A stretch of 64,000 nucleotides of DNA from Acidimicrobiaceae bacterium (lineage in GTDB: Bacteria > Actinomycetota > Acidimicrobiia > Acidimicrobiales > RAAP-2), in NCBI GenBank assembly GCA_003167415.1, contig PMTF01000004.1:1-64000 (forward strand). The letters run 5' to 3'. Each line of letters begins with the position of its first letter. Within the stretch, counting starts at the first letter, position 1. Shown piece after piece: positions 4,323-26,996 of this stretch. Below the pieces are notes generated by a model. That model saw only the letters and a program-made list of their open reading frames with translations. It was not told the origin of the DNA and made no database searches. Both the position numbers and the translations under genes were made by a program.

Positions 4323-5602
4323 CAGCGGGGCAACTCCGCGCGATAGTCGGGGTGCAGCGACTGCATGTAGAGCGTGTCGCTGCGCTCGGTGATGCCGCAC
4401 GCGAGGTACTGCTCGTGCAGACGTGCCAGGGCGTCGTAGTCGAGTTCCACACCCAGACCGGGTGCGCTGGGTACGCTGATCGCCCCGTCGACAAAGCGCA
4501 GCGCCCCCTCGACGACGACGTCCTCGTCCTTCCAGGGCCAGTGGGTGTCGAGGGCGTAGGTGAGGTTCGGCACCGCCGCCGCCAGGTGCGTCATCGCGGC
4601 GAGGCTGATGCCCAAGTGGGAGTTGGAGTGCATCGAGAGCCCGAGGTCGAACGTGTCACAGATCGCGGACAGTCCCTGGACCTTCGCCAGGCCGCCCCAA
4701 TAGTGAGGGTCGGCGAGGATCACCTGCACCGACCTCTTCGCGATCGCCGGTGCGACGTCTTCGAATCCCACCACGCACATGTTCGTCGCGAGCGGCATCG
4801 AGACGTTGCGCGCGACCTCGGCCATGGCGTCGAGTCCCGGGGTCGGGTCCTCCAGGTACTCCAAGACGCCCTCGAGTTCGCGACCGACGTTGATCGAGGT
4901 CGCGACACCCCAGGCGGTGTTGGGGTCGAGTCGTAACGCCACGTCGGGGAAGGCCCCACGAAGCGCTTCGATGGTGGCGATCTCCTCTTCGGGGACCAGC
5001 ACGCCACCCTTCAGCTTGATGGCCCGGAACCCGTACTCCGAGAGCATGGTTCTAGCTTGGAGGACGATGGCGTTGGCGTCGAGCGCCTCGCCGTATCGAT
5101 CGGGCTTCTCTCCCGGGTGCGCGGCCCATTTGTAGAAGAGGTACGCCGAGTAGGGCACGCTCGTTCGTACGGCACCCCCGAGCAAGTCCACCACCGGACG
5201 CCCGAGCAGTTTTCCCTGGATGTCCAACGCCGCCACTTCGAAGGCGGCGTAGGCGCGCAGCACGGTGCCGGCTTCGCTGATCTGGCCGGTGAGGCCATGG
5301 CGATCGGCGCCGACGGCGCCGTGCAGCGTCCTCGAGGTGCGCCGGAGCATCTCGTTCGTGGCGAACACGTCGAGTCCCACCAACGCGTCGCCGACGAGTC
5401 GTAGACGCGCCAGATGGCCACCGTCCCCGTAGGACTCACCGAGTCCCGTGACCCCGTCACTCGTGGCCACCTCGATGACCGAGCGAATGGCGAAAGGCTG
5501 GTGCACGCCAACGGCGTTCAAGAGCGGCGGGTCGCGAAAGGCGACGGGCGTAACGCGGATGTTGGTGATGCGAGTGGTGTTGGTGGTCTGTGACTTCGTC
5601 AT
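4319..5602 (-). CDS. gudD: glucarate dehydratase (enolase superfamily)
   Basis: Motifs AIKLKGG, LRLDPNTAW, LEDPTPGLD, PLATNMCVVGFED, MHSNSHLGISLAAMTHLAAAVPNLTYALDTHWPW typical of the glucarate dehydratase family. Confidence 0.92.
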   Translation of the reverse strand: MTKSQTTNTTRITNIRVTPVAFRDPPLLNAVGVHQPFAIRSVIEVATSDGVTGLGESYGDGGHLARLRLVGDALVGLDVFATNEMLRRTSRTLHGAVGADRHGLTGQISEAGTVLRAYAAFEVAALDIQGKLLGRPVVDLLGGAVRTSVPYSAYLFYKWAAHPGEKPDRYGEALDANAIVLQARTMLSEYGFRAIKLKGGVLVPEEEIATIEALRGAFPDVALRLDPNTAWGVATSINVGRELEGVLEYLEDPTPGLDAMAEVARNVSMPLATNMCVVGFEDVAPAIAKRSVQVILADPHYWGGLAKVQGLSAICDTFDLGLSMHSNSHLGISLAAMTHLAAAVPNLTYALDTHWPWKDEDVVVEGALRFVDGAISVPSAPGLGVELDYDALARLHEQYLACGITERSDTLYMQSLHPDYRAELPRW

Positions 5603-5706
5603 AGTCGTCCGTCGTGTGTGAGAAGTTGCGACCTCTCATCCGTGGTGGAAGACTAACGCATGACGAATTTTCCAAGAACGTCGAGTCGGTCGTACGAGGT
5701 TGCGTC

Positions 5707-12160: not shown

Positions 12161-13168
12161 ATGAAGAGCAGTGTTACGAGCAGGCTCCGGTTCCTGGGTA
12201 AATCATTCATCATTTTACTTGTCACGCAATGTCTTGTTTGGTGCACTACCGGCGTCCCGGTCGGTGCGTCTAGCGATCAGCTCAGCGCGGCGATCTCGCA
12301 GGCCAAATTGACACATATGATTAACGCCTCGATCAGCGTTAACAACCTCCCGAGTACCGTGACGCCATCACTCAGCACTTTGGCAAACGGCGGTGACCTT
12401 GGTAGCACTCTCGATGGGGGGGCATGCGGAAACATTAATGTCAGTGCCTGGCGGGAGAACATTGCACACTGTTACTTTGGCGATACAAGGTCGAAGGTTA
12501 CCGTGGCACTGATCGGAGACTCACGCGCTGGAATGTATCTGGACACTTTCGCCAACCTCGGAAAGCTTGAGCACTTCAAGGTTCTCTTCATTGCCAAAGA
12601 TGGGTGTCCGTCACCGCTGGGTACATATATGACAAACAACAGCGGTGAGATGAGCGACACAGTGTGGACCGCGTGCTCGAACTTCCATTCATATATGATC
12701 TCCAACCTGAAGAAGATAAAACCACGCGTGATCGTTGTCTCAAGTAATTCGGACATTGACCTCACAAACCCTCCGCACGCAGCAACTGGTCCTGAGATTC
12801 AGGCAGACATGACTGCCTTCTTGTCTAAATTGCCCGCGAGTTCCCGAGTTATCGTGCTCGGCGGATTCCCACAACCCGCCCCGACAGCCAATCCGACCGT
12901 GTGCCTTTCGCGTAACCCGGTGAACGTTGCATCCTGTGCGTTCACTCCCTCTGCGGGTACCCAGACGGACAATGCTGCTTTTGCCTCTGCCGCCACGGCT
13001 GAAGGCGACGTGTTTGTCAATCAGACTCGGTGGTTCTGTACAAGTACTTGTCCGGCATTAATCGGTAAGTTCGTCCCTTACACGACCGACGCGTTTCACG
13101 CAGACAACACATACCTAAAGTTCTTGATCGGTGTTCTCTGGTCGTCCATAGAGCGATACGTAAGGTAG
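12161..13168 (+). CDS. secreted SGNH-domain protein (acyltransferase/hydrolase-like)
   Basis: N-terminal signal; VALIGDSRAGMYLD (GDS block), DAFHADNTYLKFLIG (C-terminal D-x-x-H). Confidence 0.7.
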   Translation: MKSSVTSRLRFLGKSFIILLVTQCLVWCTTGVPVGASSDQLSAAISQAKLTHMINASISVNNLPSTVTPSLSTLANGGDLGSTLDGGACGNINVSAWRENIAHCYFGDTRSKVTVALIGDSRAGMYLDTFANLGKLEHFKVLFIAKDGCPSPLGTYMTNNSGEMSDTVWTACSNFHSYMISNLKKIKPRVIVVSSNSDIDLTNPPHAATGPEIQADMTAFLSKLPASSRVIVLGGFPQPAPTANPTVCLSRNPVNVASCAFTPSAGTQTDNAAFASAATAEGDVFVNQTRWFCTSTCPALIGKFVPYTTDAFHADNTYLKFLIGVLWSSIERYVR

Positions 13169-13512
13169 CCAAACCCACGAAAGCCGCACCCCACGACGTA
13201 CGAAGGAAGCTCGAGGGATTCGCACGCTGGGTCTTGCGCCAGCGGTACTAACCAACATTCGAGTCCTCGAGCTGTCAAGCAATCCGACCACATTTGCCCA
13301 ACCAGGGAGACCGCAGAACTGCTGAAACTAAGCCACTTCCCAATGTCGAACACTCACCGCGACTGTGACTCCTTCCAATTGACCAAAGGTTTCCTCTGGA
13401 CCGAGTGCCGATTCACTGGCACTTTCAGCAATTTGTTAGCAGTGTTGTCAAAGGTAGAGACAACGTAGTGACTGGTGCCATAACTTAAATGCTTTCGGTG
13501 CTGCTGCATGTG

Positions 13513-13592
13513 CCGACGAAAAGGCAAACCCTTCGCGAGTTGGGGGCGCAAAGCCACGGGACTCTTGAGTCAGCCGGGCCGCCGAATCGGAT
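13513..13592 (+). promoter_or_regulatory. cyclic di-GMP-I (GEMM) riboswitch aptamer
   Basis: CCGACGAAAAGGCAAACCCTTCGCGAGTTGGGGGCGCAAAGCCACGGGACTCTTGAGTCAGCCGGGCCGCCGAATCGG carries conserved GGCAAACC, GCGCAAAGCC and AGCCGGGCCGCCGAA blocks. Confidence 0.88.
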
Positions 13593-13655
13593 GCTTCATG
13601 GCTTCGTCCACCGGTGTGTTCCGTCTGCTCACAGGGCAGAGCCAGGGAGCATCAG

Positions 13656-15098
13656 GTGTCGAATCAGAATCGTAGGGATCCTTTATATCGAGGAACCGGT
13701 ATCGGGGTTCGTGGTGCTGACAGTCGAAAACGTCGGCCAATCTTGACCGGGGTGGTCGTGACTGCGTTAATTATTGGTTCAGCATTGTCTGCGGGGGTCG
13801 CGAACGCCATCGGATCACAATCGAATGCAAGTCAACCGACGAACCGGGCAATCTCAAATATTCCGAATCTCAAGGAACTCGCACACAAGGACGCAGGACG
13901 CTCGCCGATCGCCAACGCCAGCATAAAACCGAAGAAAAAGGCCCCTTCAAGCGAGGTAAAGCGTCGGCGTCGGCGTCGGCCGGTGGTGGCAGCCGTAGCC
14001 GCAACCTCGAAGACTTCCGCTTCACCGACGGCAAGTCAGGGTTCGGGCTTTGTTGAACGCAACGATACGTCACTAGCTCTGAATGGACAGCCTTATAAAT
14101 TCGTAGGCATCAATATTTATATGGCCGCCAGCGTCGTAACTCCCGCGAGTTGCGACGGCGACAGTTATCCCGCGCTCAACCTAAATGCCATCTTGTCAGT
14201 CATGCCGAACGGCATCGTATTCCGTTTTTGGGCGTTCCAAGACTTCTTCGTATCTAATGGGACTTTGAATTGGACGAGTTTCGATCAAGTCCTCGCGATT
14301 GCGGCCGCCCATGGTGACAAAGTGATACCAGCCCTGGCCAACCAATACAGTTATTGCGACGGAGCCGCAAAAACTCTTGCATGGTACCAAAGCGGCTACA
14401 AAACCACGATCGAACCTGGCGATATTGTCCCATACCGGCAGTACGTGACAGACGTGGTGAGTCGCTATGCAAACAATCCCACTATCGCCATGTGGCAACT
14501 GGTGAACGAAGGGGAAGCTGTAAACGGCAGTGGGAGTTGCAACGAGTCAGCCGCCTTGGCCGCGCTGCTTGCATTTTCAAACAATGTCGGGGGTCTAGTT
14601 CATAGTCTTGATCGCAATCACCTAGTGAGCCTGGGTGCCCTAGCCGGGTACTCCGGATCGGGAGCGCAATGGTGTGGAGCACAGAACGGCGACTACCAGC
14701 TTCTGATGGCTTCGCCTGGTAACGACGTATGTGACTACCACGACTACGGATACCCCAATAAACCGATGGGGATTCCATTCGGCCCAGACCTATCTACCGC
14801 TATTGGAATGTGCCACGCTGAGGGCAAACCACTCATGGTAGGTGAGACTGGAATCGTGGACAATACCTCCGCCGGATTGGCTTCACGGGCAGCGGAGTAC
14901 ACAGCTAAGTTTTCGGCGCAGTTTAGCGCCGGGGCGGTTGGGGAACTTATGTGGACATGGGCAAACTCGTCCGATTACGTGTCACCCGGACACGTCAGCG
15001 CCTACCCAGATTACGGAGTCTTCCCTGGTGACCCTGCGCTGGGAGTTTTCCATACGTTTCTAAATTCGGGACTCCTCGGGTTCTCGAAGGCAACTTGA
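13656..15098 (+). CDS. secreted glycoside hydrolase, GH5-like (mannanase/cellulase type)
   Basis: KFVGINIYMAA, NPTIAMWQLVNEGEA (NE catalytic motif), VGETGIV, GELMWTWAN; GTG start at 13656 preceded by GGGAG. Confidence 0.8.
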   Translation: MSNQNRRDPLYRGTGIGVRGADSRKRRPILTGVVVTALIIGSALSAGVANAIGSQSNASQPTNRAISNIPNLKELAHKDAGRSPIANASIKPKKKAPSSEVKRRRRRRPVVAAVAATSKTSASPTASQGSGFVERNDTSLALNGQPYKFVGINIYMAASVVTPASCDGDSYPALNLNAILSVMPNGIVFRFWAFQDFFVSNGTLNWTSFDQVLAIAAAHGDKVIPALANQYSYCDGAAKTLAWYQSGYKTTIEPGDIVPYRQYVTDVVSRYANNPTIAMWQLVNEGEAVNGSGSCNESAALAALLAFSNNVGGLVHSLDRNHLVSLGALAGYSGSGAQWCGAQNGDYQLLMASPGNDVCDYHDYGYPNKPMGIPFGPDLSTAIGMCHAEGKPLMVGETGIVDNTSAGLASRAAEYTAKFSAQFSAGAVGELMWTWANSSDYVSPGHVSAYPDYGVFPGDPALGVFHTFLNSGLLGFSKAT

Positions 15099-15248
15099 CG
15101 CCCTTGACGTGACGCAGTTCTCTCTTAAGGCGCGTCCCCACTTGGGTCGACGGCCACCGGTCGATGTCCTCGAACCTCATCAAATGGCGCGCACGTATTG
15201 CTCGCAGTTTCGGAAGCGTTCAAACAGCCGAAACGAGGAACTACATGC

Positions 15249-15500
15249 GCCACCACGTCATTTGATCGCGTCATCGCCATCGACGGAATCGCCGTCACTG
15301 GCGTGACCTTCAGGCCAGAGGGCGTCGTGGTGAGGATTCGCCGGCGCAAGCGTTCCCACCGGTGTCCCTGCGGGTGAACCACGAGGACGCACTTCGACCG
15401 CTCGACTCGTCCTAAGCGTCACCTCGACCTTAGGGCGACTAAGTGCTTCCTCGAAGCCGAGATCTGTTGGATCGAGTGTGCGAGGTACCGACAAGTTCGT
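15249..15500 (+). pseudogene. ISL3-family transposase N-terminal relic
   Basis: Frame reads ATSFDRVIAIDGIAVTGVTFRPEGVVVRIRRRKRSHRCPCG*TTRTHFDRSTRPKRHLDLRATKCFLEAEICWIECARYRQVR with an internal stop; resembles ISL3 N-terminal Zn-binding region. Confidence 0.72.
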
Positions 15501-15966
15501 CGCGAAGATGCAGGTTGACCGGTACTTTTGCGACAACCTTAATTGGTCCCCAATGTTGCCGAGATCTTTGGAGCGGGCATCGCTGTGAAGCACCGATGGA
15601 GCAGTCAAGATTCTAGGGAATCTGCACGATAACGCCATTACAGACCGGCCAGGAACCCATTGAACTCGACTCTCGAGTCATCGTTTGCACACTTCTATGA
15701 GCCGACTCTCAAATCCTTGGAAACAAATAATTGATTTCGAAATCACAACCGAGCAGACGGAGAACGTGAACTTCTTGGTTGTCGTTCCCCCGTTGGCGCT
15801 CGTCAAAGTCTCGATGGCCGGCCATGATCTGACCGGACCGCTAATTTCTCCCGTTAATGAGTCCAAGGTGAGTCACGCAGGCTGCGACGACGCTGGTCAC
15901 CGTCAGTTCGCACATGAGACGACGACCTTACGTCGAAGTGGATCATCGTGAAGAGTACCTAGTAGG

Positions 15967-18645
15967 TTGTCCACCATGTCACGCGACATTCTACGAATTT
16001 TGCGGGGCTGTTTGATATCGCGACGGACCCTTTGGATCCGCGCCAGACTTCTGGTTGGCGCCCTCGTCGCGCTGACCACGTTCTTCGTACCGGTTACCTC
16101 GCTTCTCGCGACGAGCGCAAAAGCGGACTCTTTGCAAATGTCATCAGACAATTCCGCAACGGGTTGGTATTCGAATGAACCCCTTCTATCTCCAGCCAGA
16201 GTCAAGGGCGGCGACTTCGGTGAACTCTTCGACACTCAGCTCAGTGGTGAGGTCTACGCGCAGCCCCTAGTCAGCCACGCCACCGTGCTGGCAGTCACGG
16301 AGAACGATCACGCCTACGGTCTCAACGCCACAACCGGAGCCATCGAGTGGCAGGACGTCTTTGGTCCTGCCGCCGACCCGGACGCCCAGATCGGCTGTCC
16401 AGCTACGGGATCAGTTTTGGGGATAACGGGAACACCGGTCATCAATCCATCAACCGGCATCGCCTACTTCGTTGCCGCAAGAGACTCCGGCACGAACGGC
16501 GCCACTCAGTGGTTCATGGAAGCCGTCAGCGCACAGTCCGGAGCGACGGCGCCGGATTGGCCCGCGGGAGGCGTACAGATACAGGGCTCGGCCGACGGTG
16601 ATCCGGGCACCGTCTTTAACGGGCAGTATCAGTTGCAACGCCCAGGACTTGTTCTCGTAAATGGTGTCATCTATGCCGCCTTTGGCGCGTTATGCGACGT
16701 CGGCAACTGGGAGGGCTGGCTCGTCGGAGTTAGTGAATCGAGCGCGAGCATTACCACCATGTGGTCCACAGAAGAGAACGTGCCCGACATGGGTTTCAAG
16801 CAACCAGGCTCTGGAATATGGCAGTCCGGATCACCTCCCGTTGTGAACAGCCAAGGTGACATCTTCGTTGCCACTGGTAACGGCGATGATCCGACGGGGC
16901 CTCTACCTGGCAGCGACGCGAACGCTGATACGTATGGCGAAGCCGTGATTGAATTGAGCACCTCAGGGGGAACTCTTCATCCCATCGACTTTTTTATTGC
17001 CGCCGATGCGCAGGCTCTCAATGCCCAAGACGGCGACCTCGGATCAGGAAGTCCTGTGGCGCTGCCCGCGAGCATGGGAACAAAACAGGAACCCAACGTC
17101 ATGCTGATTGACGGAAAGCAGGGGATCCTGTATGTGTTGAATCAGAATAAACTGGGCGGCTTTCAACAGGGGGCCAAGGGGACTGATGAAGTTCCCTCGG
17201 AGGTGGGTTCTTACGGCGGAGTGTGGGCAAAACCTGCAGTCTGGCCCGGAAATGGGGGCTATGTATATATTCCGACGACCGGAATGTCTGGATTCGCGAC
17301 TGACGGCGGTTCACTTGACGCATTCAAGCGCACGGTGAGGGCCAACGGCGTAGTGTCGTTCACGCTCGCTGGAGCGACCGCCTACAGCGGCAACATCTTC
17401 GGCTACGGCTCTGGCACGCCGATCGTCACTTCGAACGGCTCTAAGTCAGGGTCAGCGCTGGTATGGATCATTCACGCCATCGGTCCAGGCGGAGTGGACT
17501 CACAGTTGGAGGCGTATAGCCCAATACCGGTGAAGAAGTCCCTAGACGAGGTCTGGAGTTCGGAACCCTTTACCTCCAACGTCTTCGACCAACCAGGTGT
17601 CGAAAACGGCATCGTCTACGTCGGAACGGCTAGCCAGACGCTTTTGGGTTTTGGCGCGGTTCCTTCGAAAACCCCGGCACTGGTCGGTACCAATGTGATC
17701 TTCCCCGTGACTGTTGTTTCGCAGTCGGTTACTCAGAGCGCCACATTCACGGTGTCCGCACCCACGACGGTGTCGTCATTCGCGGTGTCCGGGAGCTACT
17801 CCATGGGTGCGCCAAGTGCGTCCTTGCCAGCGTCGCTGGTGAAGGGCCAGTCGATCACCGTACCCATCACCTTTACCCCGACCTCCCTTGGCGCGAACTC
17901 GGGAACACTCACGGCCAACGTCTCCAGAGCCGCCGCCGCGATCACTTTGAATGGACAAGGTGAGACGCCAGCCACCTCGTTCACGATCTCCCCTGACGAG
18001 GCAAACTTCCTTCCCGAACTCATTGGTGGTCCTGCATCGAAGCCCGAACCAATCACGTTTACGAATGTCTCTTCAACTCCCATCACCGTGACGGGATTCG
18101 CTTCACCGATATTGCCATTCTCGGTGACGAATCCTCCGGCGGACCAGACGATTCAGCCGAACGGCGGGACACTCATCGTCAACGTTGTATTCCATCCGCC
18201 GAGTTCCTCAGGCGACTTTGTGCACGTCTTCAACAGCGTCGCGACCCTCGAAACTAGTGCGGGGAATTTCGGTATTGCGATCTCGGGTTCGGCGGATCCG
18301 CCAGCCAATATCAGCACGGCGCCCGACGTCCTCAATTTCGGTAAGGTCGCAGTGGGCTCGAGCGCGACGTTGGAATTCGATCTCGGCGACCAAGGAGGCT
18401 TCCCTCTTCGAATCATCCGGTCGACGCCACCCAGAACCAACGGCTTTCGTGCCCTAACAAATCCATTTGTTCAGTTGGCCAAAACCAGTCCACCTCACAC
18501 CATCGCTTCGAACACTTCAGTCCAAGAGACGGTGAAGTTCGCACCGACAAAAAATGGATACGTGACGGCAACGTGGCTGCTCGAGGGCAACGACGGCAAT
18601 GGCGTTCAAAGAGTCACTCTCATGGGAACGGGATACACGCGTTGA
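15967..18645 (+). CDS. secreted PQQ-like beta-propeller protein with C-terminal ASH/choice-of-anchor-type domains
   Basis: Signal segment; HATVLAVTENDHAYGLNATTGAIEWQ and VMLIDGKQGILYVLNQ propeller strands; SPDEANFLPELIGGPASKPEPITFTNVSSTPITVTGF and LNFGKVAVGSSATLEFDL repeats. Confidence 0.75.
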   Translation: MSTMSRDILRILRGCLISRRTLWIRARLLVGALVALTTFFVPVTSLLATSAKADSLQMSSDNSATGWYSNEPLLSPARVKGGDFGELFDTQLSGEVYAQPLVSHATVLAVTENDHAYGLNATTGAIEWQDVFGPAADPDAQIGCPATGSVLGITGTPVINPSTGIAYFVAARDSGTNGATQWFMEAVSAQSGATAPDWPAGGVQIQGSADGDPGTVFNGQYQLQRPGLVLVNGVIYAAFGALCDVGNWEGWLVGVSESSASITTMWSTEENVPDMGFKQPGSGIWQSGSPPVVNSQGDIFVATGNGDDPTGPLPGSDANADTYGEAVIELSTSGGTLHPIDFFIAADAQALNAQDGDLGSGSPVALPASMGTKQEPNVMLIDGKQGILYVLNQNKLGGFQQGAKGTDEVPSEVGSYGGVWAKPAVWPGNGGYVYIPTTGMSGFATDGGSLDAFKRTVRANGVVSFTLAGATAYSGNIFGYGSGTPIVTSNGSKSGSALVWIIHAIGPGGVDSQLEAYSPIPVKKSLDEVWSSEPFTSNVFDQPGVENGIVYVGTASQTLLGFGAVPSKTPALVGTNVIFPVTVVSQSVTQSATFTVSAPTTVSSFAVSGSYSMGAPSASLPASLVKGQSITVPITFTPTSLGANSGTLTANVSRAAAAITLNGQGETPATSFTISPDEANFLPELIGGPASKPEPITFTNVSSTPITVTGFASPILPFSVTNPPADQTIQPNGGTLIVNVVFHPPSSSGDFVHVFNSVATLETSAGNFGIAISGSADPPANISTAPDVLNFGKVAVGSSATLEFDLGDQGGFPLRIIRSTPPRTNGFRALTNPFVQLAKTSPPHTIASNTSVQETVKFAPTKNGYVTATWLLEGNDGNGVQRVTLMGTGYTR

Positions 18646-26635: not shown

Positions 26636-26996
26636 TCAGGATATAGCGCAGAAGATACGACCGCGAAAACTTGCATTATTCGAGTGGGTAACAGATTCTG
26701 GCTTCGTCTGGCAACGATGTGTGCGACTTCCACGATTACGGATACCCAAACGACCCGAGGAGTTGCCGTTCGGCACGGTTGGCGAAAGCGGGGTCACGGT
26801 CGATTCCACCACAGGTCTTGCATCGCGAGCGACAAAGTTCTCAGCGAAGTTTGACACCGGTGTTGTCGGAGAACTGATGTGGGCATGGACGCCACACCCC
26901 ATTTTCGTGTATCCAGAGGAACGTCCCGATTACGGAATATTCCCAGGTGACCCGTCTCTAACAGTGCTGCAAGCGTTTTTGAATCCTCAACCGTGA
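26636..26996 (+). pseudogene. decayed C-terminal copy of the GH5-like gene
   Basis: SSGNDVCDFHDYGYPND in one frame, then PFG-TVGESGVTVDSTTGLASRATKFSAKFDTGVVGELMWAWTPHPIFVYPEERPDYGIFPGDPSLTVLQAFLN in another; matches 13656-15098 with a frameshift and internal deletion. Confidence 0.82.

Follow-up and report, generated by a model that had tools for sequence, protein, structure and literature searches.

A canonical c-di-GMP-I riboswitch very likely forms the 5′ leader of a gene encoding a secreted GH5 family glycosidase in an Acidimicrobiaceae bacterium, with ligand binding, acting through the P1 helix, predicted to alter the access of the ribosome to the start codon. The locus lies within a stretch of 64,000 nucleotides (positions 1 to 64,000 of contig PMTF01000004.1, assembly GCA_003167415.1) that is referred to here as the window and numbered from its first letter. 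The identity of the aptamer, its canonical ligand contacts, the secreted GH5 protein encoded downstream, and the recurrence of this pairing in relatives were all computed in this work.

Identification of the aptamer

When the whole window was searched with cmscan and Rfam 15, one match in total exceeded the gathering thresholds, a full-length match to RF03167 (c-di-GMP-I-GGC) at positions 13514-13587 of the plus strand, with a score of 61.2 bits (threshold 59 bits) and an E-value of 5.3e-12. RF01051, the model by which an earlier sequence-only reading had proposed to check for a GEMM-I riboswitch, scored 56.1 bits at 13513-13586, where the cut-off is 35 bits. The core blocks on which that reading was based were located as GGCAAACC from 13523, GCGCAAAGCC from 13546, and AGCCGGGCCGCCGAA ending at 13586. 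Covariance-model searches of the 2.66 Mb genome with RF01051 and RF03167 found no second copy of the aptamer.

The Rfam models, folding, and an alignment of relatives together placed the aptamer at 13513-13587 on the plus strand, with P2 at 13524-13549 and P3 at 13553-13579. P1 is formed by CCGA at 13513-13516 and TCGG at 13587-13590. A possible outer extension of P1, in which GCAT (13506-13509) would pair with ATGC (13591-13594), was read directly and appears in the fold obtained when P1 is forced. In an alignment of 41 aptamers, two-sided changes were found in 13 of the 17 base pairs, and P2 and P3 have the conserved cores and the covariation among relatives by which members of RF01051 are recognized. 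Judged by its sequence and predicted structure, the RNA is a canonical c-di-GMP-I riboswitch preceding a secreted GH5 glycosidase, and on this basis the presence of a full-length c-di-GMP-I (GEMM-I) aptamer in the leader is confirmed. The range of 13513-13658 originally assigned to the element comprises the aptamer and a linker that includes the GTG start codon at 13656-13658. The aptamer and the GTG are separated by 68 nt, close to the "about 65" first estimated, which leaves the predicted space for an expression platform.

The downstream gene and its surroundings

The gene directly downstream (13656-15098, plus strand) encodes a protein of 480 aa that was identified as a secreted, mannanase-like GH5 family glycosidase, in agreement with the sequence-only reading. 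The match to PF00150 (GH5) was narrowly above the cut-off (26.8 versus 23.5 bits), and the best solved relatives of the protein are GH5 endo-mannanases (E-value 9.9e-11). Putative catalytic glutamates, the acid/base E285 (VNE, within VNEG) and the nucleophile E397 (GET, within GETG), are both conserved in relatives of the protein, and a hydrophobic N-terminal segment of the kind seen in signal peptides was read from the sequence by eye. An AlphaFold model made from three sequences had a pLDDT of 33, too poor to judge the (beta/alpha)8 fold. The Shine-Dalgarno (SD) sequence, by direct reading, is GGGAG at 13645-13649 on the plus strand, 6 nt before the GTG.

The riboswitch and the GH5 gene look like a single-gene unit. 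On the upstream side, the plus strand carries an SGNH-domain gene (12161-13168), and the next clear plus-strand gene after the GH5 gene starts at 15967, past apparent transposase remnants. These remnants, at ~15200-15640 on the 3′ side of the GH5 gene, resemble an ISL3-type transposase by inspection. Genes encoding glycosyltransferases, epimerases, a pyruvyltransferase, and a membrane protein that by inspection looks like a polysaccharide exporter are found at ~18.9-33.5 kb. These polysaccharide genes are on the minus strand and run toward the GH5 gene, and they are therefore not transcribed from the riboswitch leader. They are neighbors, not a unit headed by that leader, and the proposal that the riboswitch heads an exopolysaccharide locus is not supported. 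Between the polysaccharide genes, at 26695-26987 on the plus strand, is a degraded, frame-broken duplicate of the stretch of the GH5 gene that encodes the C-terminal part of the protein.

It is plausible that matrix building and breakdown are coupled through c-di-GMP, and relatives in the genus carry the same riboswitch beside or before polysaccharide genes. The aptamer was found in 3 of 41 sampled genomes of the genus, namely the genome of the window, G312, and G305. In G312, it precedes a GH26 gene amid glycosyltransferase and sugar-phosphotransferase-like genes; in G305, it precedes genes on the same strand that by inspection encode UDP-glucose dehydrogenase, an epimerase, and a glycosyltransferase-containing protein. 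There is, however, close to an even chance that the aptamer works and that what the enzyme breaks down, for food or attachment, is external mannan of plant or microbial origin rather than the matrix of the cell itself. Among solved proteins, its nearest relatives are secreted endo-mannanases, and riboswitches of the c-di-GMP-I class before secreted carbohydrate-active proteins are already known, in Vibrio before gbpA (PMC4744006) and in Aeromonas before putative chitinase genes (PMC6366702). Set against this are the polysaccharide synthesis genes nearby in the window and those that flank the riboswitch in both G312 and G305, in the latter downstream on the same strand. At the cell surface, the enzyme would probably trim a polysaccharide that is mannan-like or made by the cell.

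The leader and the direction of control

A weak promoter-like pair, GAGACA-N16-CATAAC, was read directly at 13457-13484 on the plus strand (8 of 12 consensus positions), and a promoter scan with a threshold of 9 of 12 gave no match just upstream of the aptamer. Clearer TTGCAA/TTGACA promoter-like boxes are present at the equivalent place in many relatives in the family. Direct reading also revealed a possible 5′ hairpin on the plus strand, in which TCGGTGC (13495-13501) would pair with GTGCCGA (13510-13516) and compete for the 5′ strand of P1. Several genera of the family show a competing hairpin of this kind; at the window locus, its statistical support is weak (z -1.6, p 0.09).

No terminator-like site, that is, a hairpin followed by a T run, was found in the leader, and a transcription terminator was accordingly rejected as the expression platform. 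The lack of an intrinsic terminator points to translational control as the most likely mode, through occlusion of the SD by a helix that competes with P1. The anti-SD segment GATGCTTC (13590-13597, plus strand) overlaps the 3′ strand of P1, taken with its possible extension as 13587-13594, and can pair with GGGAGCATC in the SD region at 13645-13653. This duplex was computed at -15.8 kcal/mol, a strength attained by 0.4-1.1% of shuffles, and the pairing is present in the unconstrained minimum-energy fold. P1 and the anti-SD helix are mutually exclusive, and an ON switch would therefore result. In the mechanism we propose, c-di-GMP made and removed by the GGDEF and EAL enzymes of the cell would bind the aptamer and stabilize P1; the resulting change in ribosome access to the GTG start would change the amount of enzyme secreted.

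When the aptamer and P1 were forced, however, the SD remained paired in a local leader hairpin (13615-13653, plus strand), and no clean switch emerged from the fold alone. Shuffle tests gave mean z values that were weak on average: -0.5 for P1, -0.9 for the 5′ decoy hairpin, and -0.8 for local sequestration of the SD. Assignment of the switch as ON or OFF by folding was dropped, since the SD is buried in both computed states and the relatives disagree. Overall, an ON switch is slightly favored. Somewhat short of an even chance is given to an OFF switch, with c-di-GMP repressing the glycosidase and the enzyme being made during dispersal. Computed folding of 45 loci, in which forcing P1 lowered SD openness at 8 and raised it at 4, speaks for OFF, as does an apparent anti-sequestor that overlaps the SD-sequestering arm in some leaders of genus g205, whereas the unconstrained fold of the window, with the 3′ strand of P1 paired to the SD region, predicts ON.

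Ligand contacts and subclass

The ligand contacts of the Vc2 riboswitch are G20, A47, and C92 (PMC4744006). We mapped the Vc2 numbering onto the window via the conserved blocks, a mapping of our own, which places these contacts at G 13523, A 13550, and C 13582 on the plus strand. All three are canonical, and c-di-GMP is therefore the expected ligand, which the aptamer would be predicted to bind. With 16 GGDEF and 10 EAL domain matches in its genome, the cell very probably makes c-di-GMP. Among 99 distinct aptamers that were aligned (41 plus 65, with 7 in common), A47 is invariant, and the contacts are G-A-C in 92, G-A-U in 6, and A-A-C in 1 (L068).

That RF03167 outscores RF01051 might suggest that the aptamer is the Rfam variant c-di-GMP-I-GGC and senses some different ligand instead of c-di-GMP. 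We consider this very improbable. The consensus of RF03167 reads GCGAAGCC, that is, G47, and from this consensus we took "GGC" to mean G20/G47/C92; the window, like every other aptamer aligned, has A47 instead. The GGC subclass was thus rejected, and the window aptamer, in which the presumed subclass-defining G47 is absent, was filed as an ordinary c-di-GMP-I aptamer. The window aptamer shares the compact architecture of RF03167, its best-scoring Rfam model, and the compact P3 and G+C-rich stems may account for the higher RF03167 score. Equally improbable is that the element has decayed and lost its function, for although this genome has a single copy, few genomes of the genus have the aptamer, and transposase-like and GH5 remnants lie close to the locus, the conserved blocks and ligand contacts are intact, the SD is well spaced, and the GH5 frame is open.

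The six aptamers with U at contact position 92 are L162, L164, L166, L172, and L175, all from genus g221, and L165. Five of the six precede homologous ~945-aa genes whose products have a prepilin-like N-terminus. Ordinary G-A-C copies are also present in genome G546. The C92U change could mean altered ligand specificity or weakened binding. The L068 aptamer (G009:C79), which precedes a secreted SdrD B-like protein, reads GAGCAAACC and has either an A at position 20 or a one-base deletion, the covariance model preferring a one-base gap. An A at position 20 is a feature of variants that sense c-AMP-GMP.

Recurrence in relatives and comparison with known systems

Matches to RF03167 were found in 42 of 299 genomes of the order. 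The genes that follow these aptamers encode type IV pilin-like and CAP-domain secreted proteins, recognized by sequence with one CAP domain confirmed, as well as GH26 (L056, L090) and GH16 (L075) enzymes and a beta-helix protein (L060). Within the family, RF01051 matches occur in 39 of 173 genomes and 9 of 21 genera. Domain scans of 37 following proteins revealed seven beta-helix proteins, six GH26 enzymes, one GH5 enzyme, and one UDP-glucose dehydrogenase, frequencies that are biased by the choice of these proteins from 60 loci for plausible reading frames. The aptamer at locus L157 (G546), which precedes a GH5 gene, is 94% identical to that of the window, the closest of those compared, and its SD/start block, GGGAGCATC...GTGTCG, is identical.

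A GH5 homologue with 59% identity is encoded in a Dormibacterota MAG (L096), where it is preceded by a c-di-GMP-I aptamer scoring 54.5 bits. The L096 and window aptamers share only 66% identity, and no GH5 homologue of comparable similarity was found in 396 genomes of the class, which argues that the pairing of GH5 gene and riboswitch either moved between lineages or arose twice. No riboswitch was found upstream of more distant GH5 homologues. In L096, a second GH5 gene (4522-5625) directly follows the riboswitch-preceded one in tandem.

The Vc1 (gbpA) and Vc2 riboswitches of Vibrio cholerae, members of RF01051, share the aptamer fold and the three ligand contacts with the window, and Vc1 precedes a secreted carbohydrate-binding protein much as the window aptamer precedes a secreted enzyme. 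The window differs from both in organism, in its target, which is a GH5 glycosidase and not a chitin-binding protein, and in its shorter P3. In Aeromonas (PMC6366702), a c-di-GMP riboswitch likewise precedes a polysaccharide hydrolase gene, but the enzyme family and the host lineage are different. A limited search of the open-access literature found nothing on such riboswitches in this bacterial group. The present locus ties an otherwise anonymous secreted glycosidase to c-di-GMP signaling, and the lineage makes this connection habitually: in the family, the aptamer stands before GH5 and GH26 enzymes, other members of the order have it before GH16 and GH26 enzymes, and in a different phylum it precedes a homologue of the GH5 enzyme. 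Direct control of matrix-active enzymes by c-di-GMP can thus be tested in these bacteria.

We put forward, as a tentative idea that we hold to be rather less than probable, that the c-di-GMP-I riboswitches of the family make up a dispersed regulon in which secreted enzymes active on polysaccharides (GH5, GH26, and beta-helix proteins) are each controlled singly and to which some polysaccharide-synthesis operons also belong, with the C92U subset, the five loci before ~945-aa prepilin-like genes and one other, perhaps sensing a different cyclic dinucleotide. If this were true, one messenger would set matrix production and remodeling alike at the level of RNA.

Two further genomes are marked by multiple aptamers. 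Genome G485, an assembly of ~6.9 Mb with 9% contamination, contains 18 c-di-GMP-I matches, many of them before secreted proteins that include GH26 enzymes. At locus L071 (G007:C51, 60735-62484), three c-di-GMP-I aptamers are spaced ~830 bases apart, the first of them in front of a type IV pilin-like gene, an arrangement that suggests tandem pilin genes each having its own switch.
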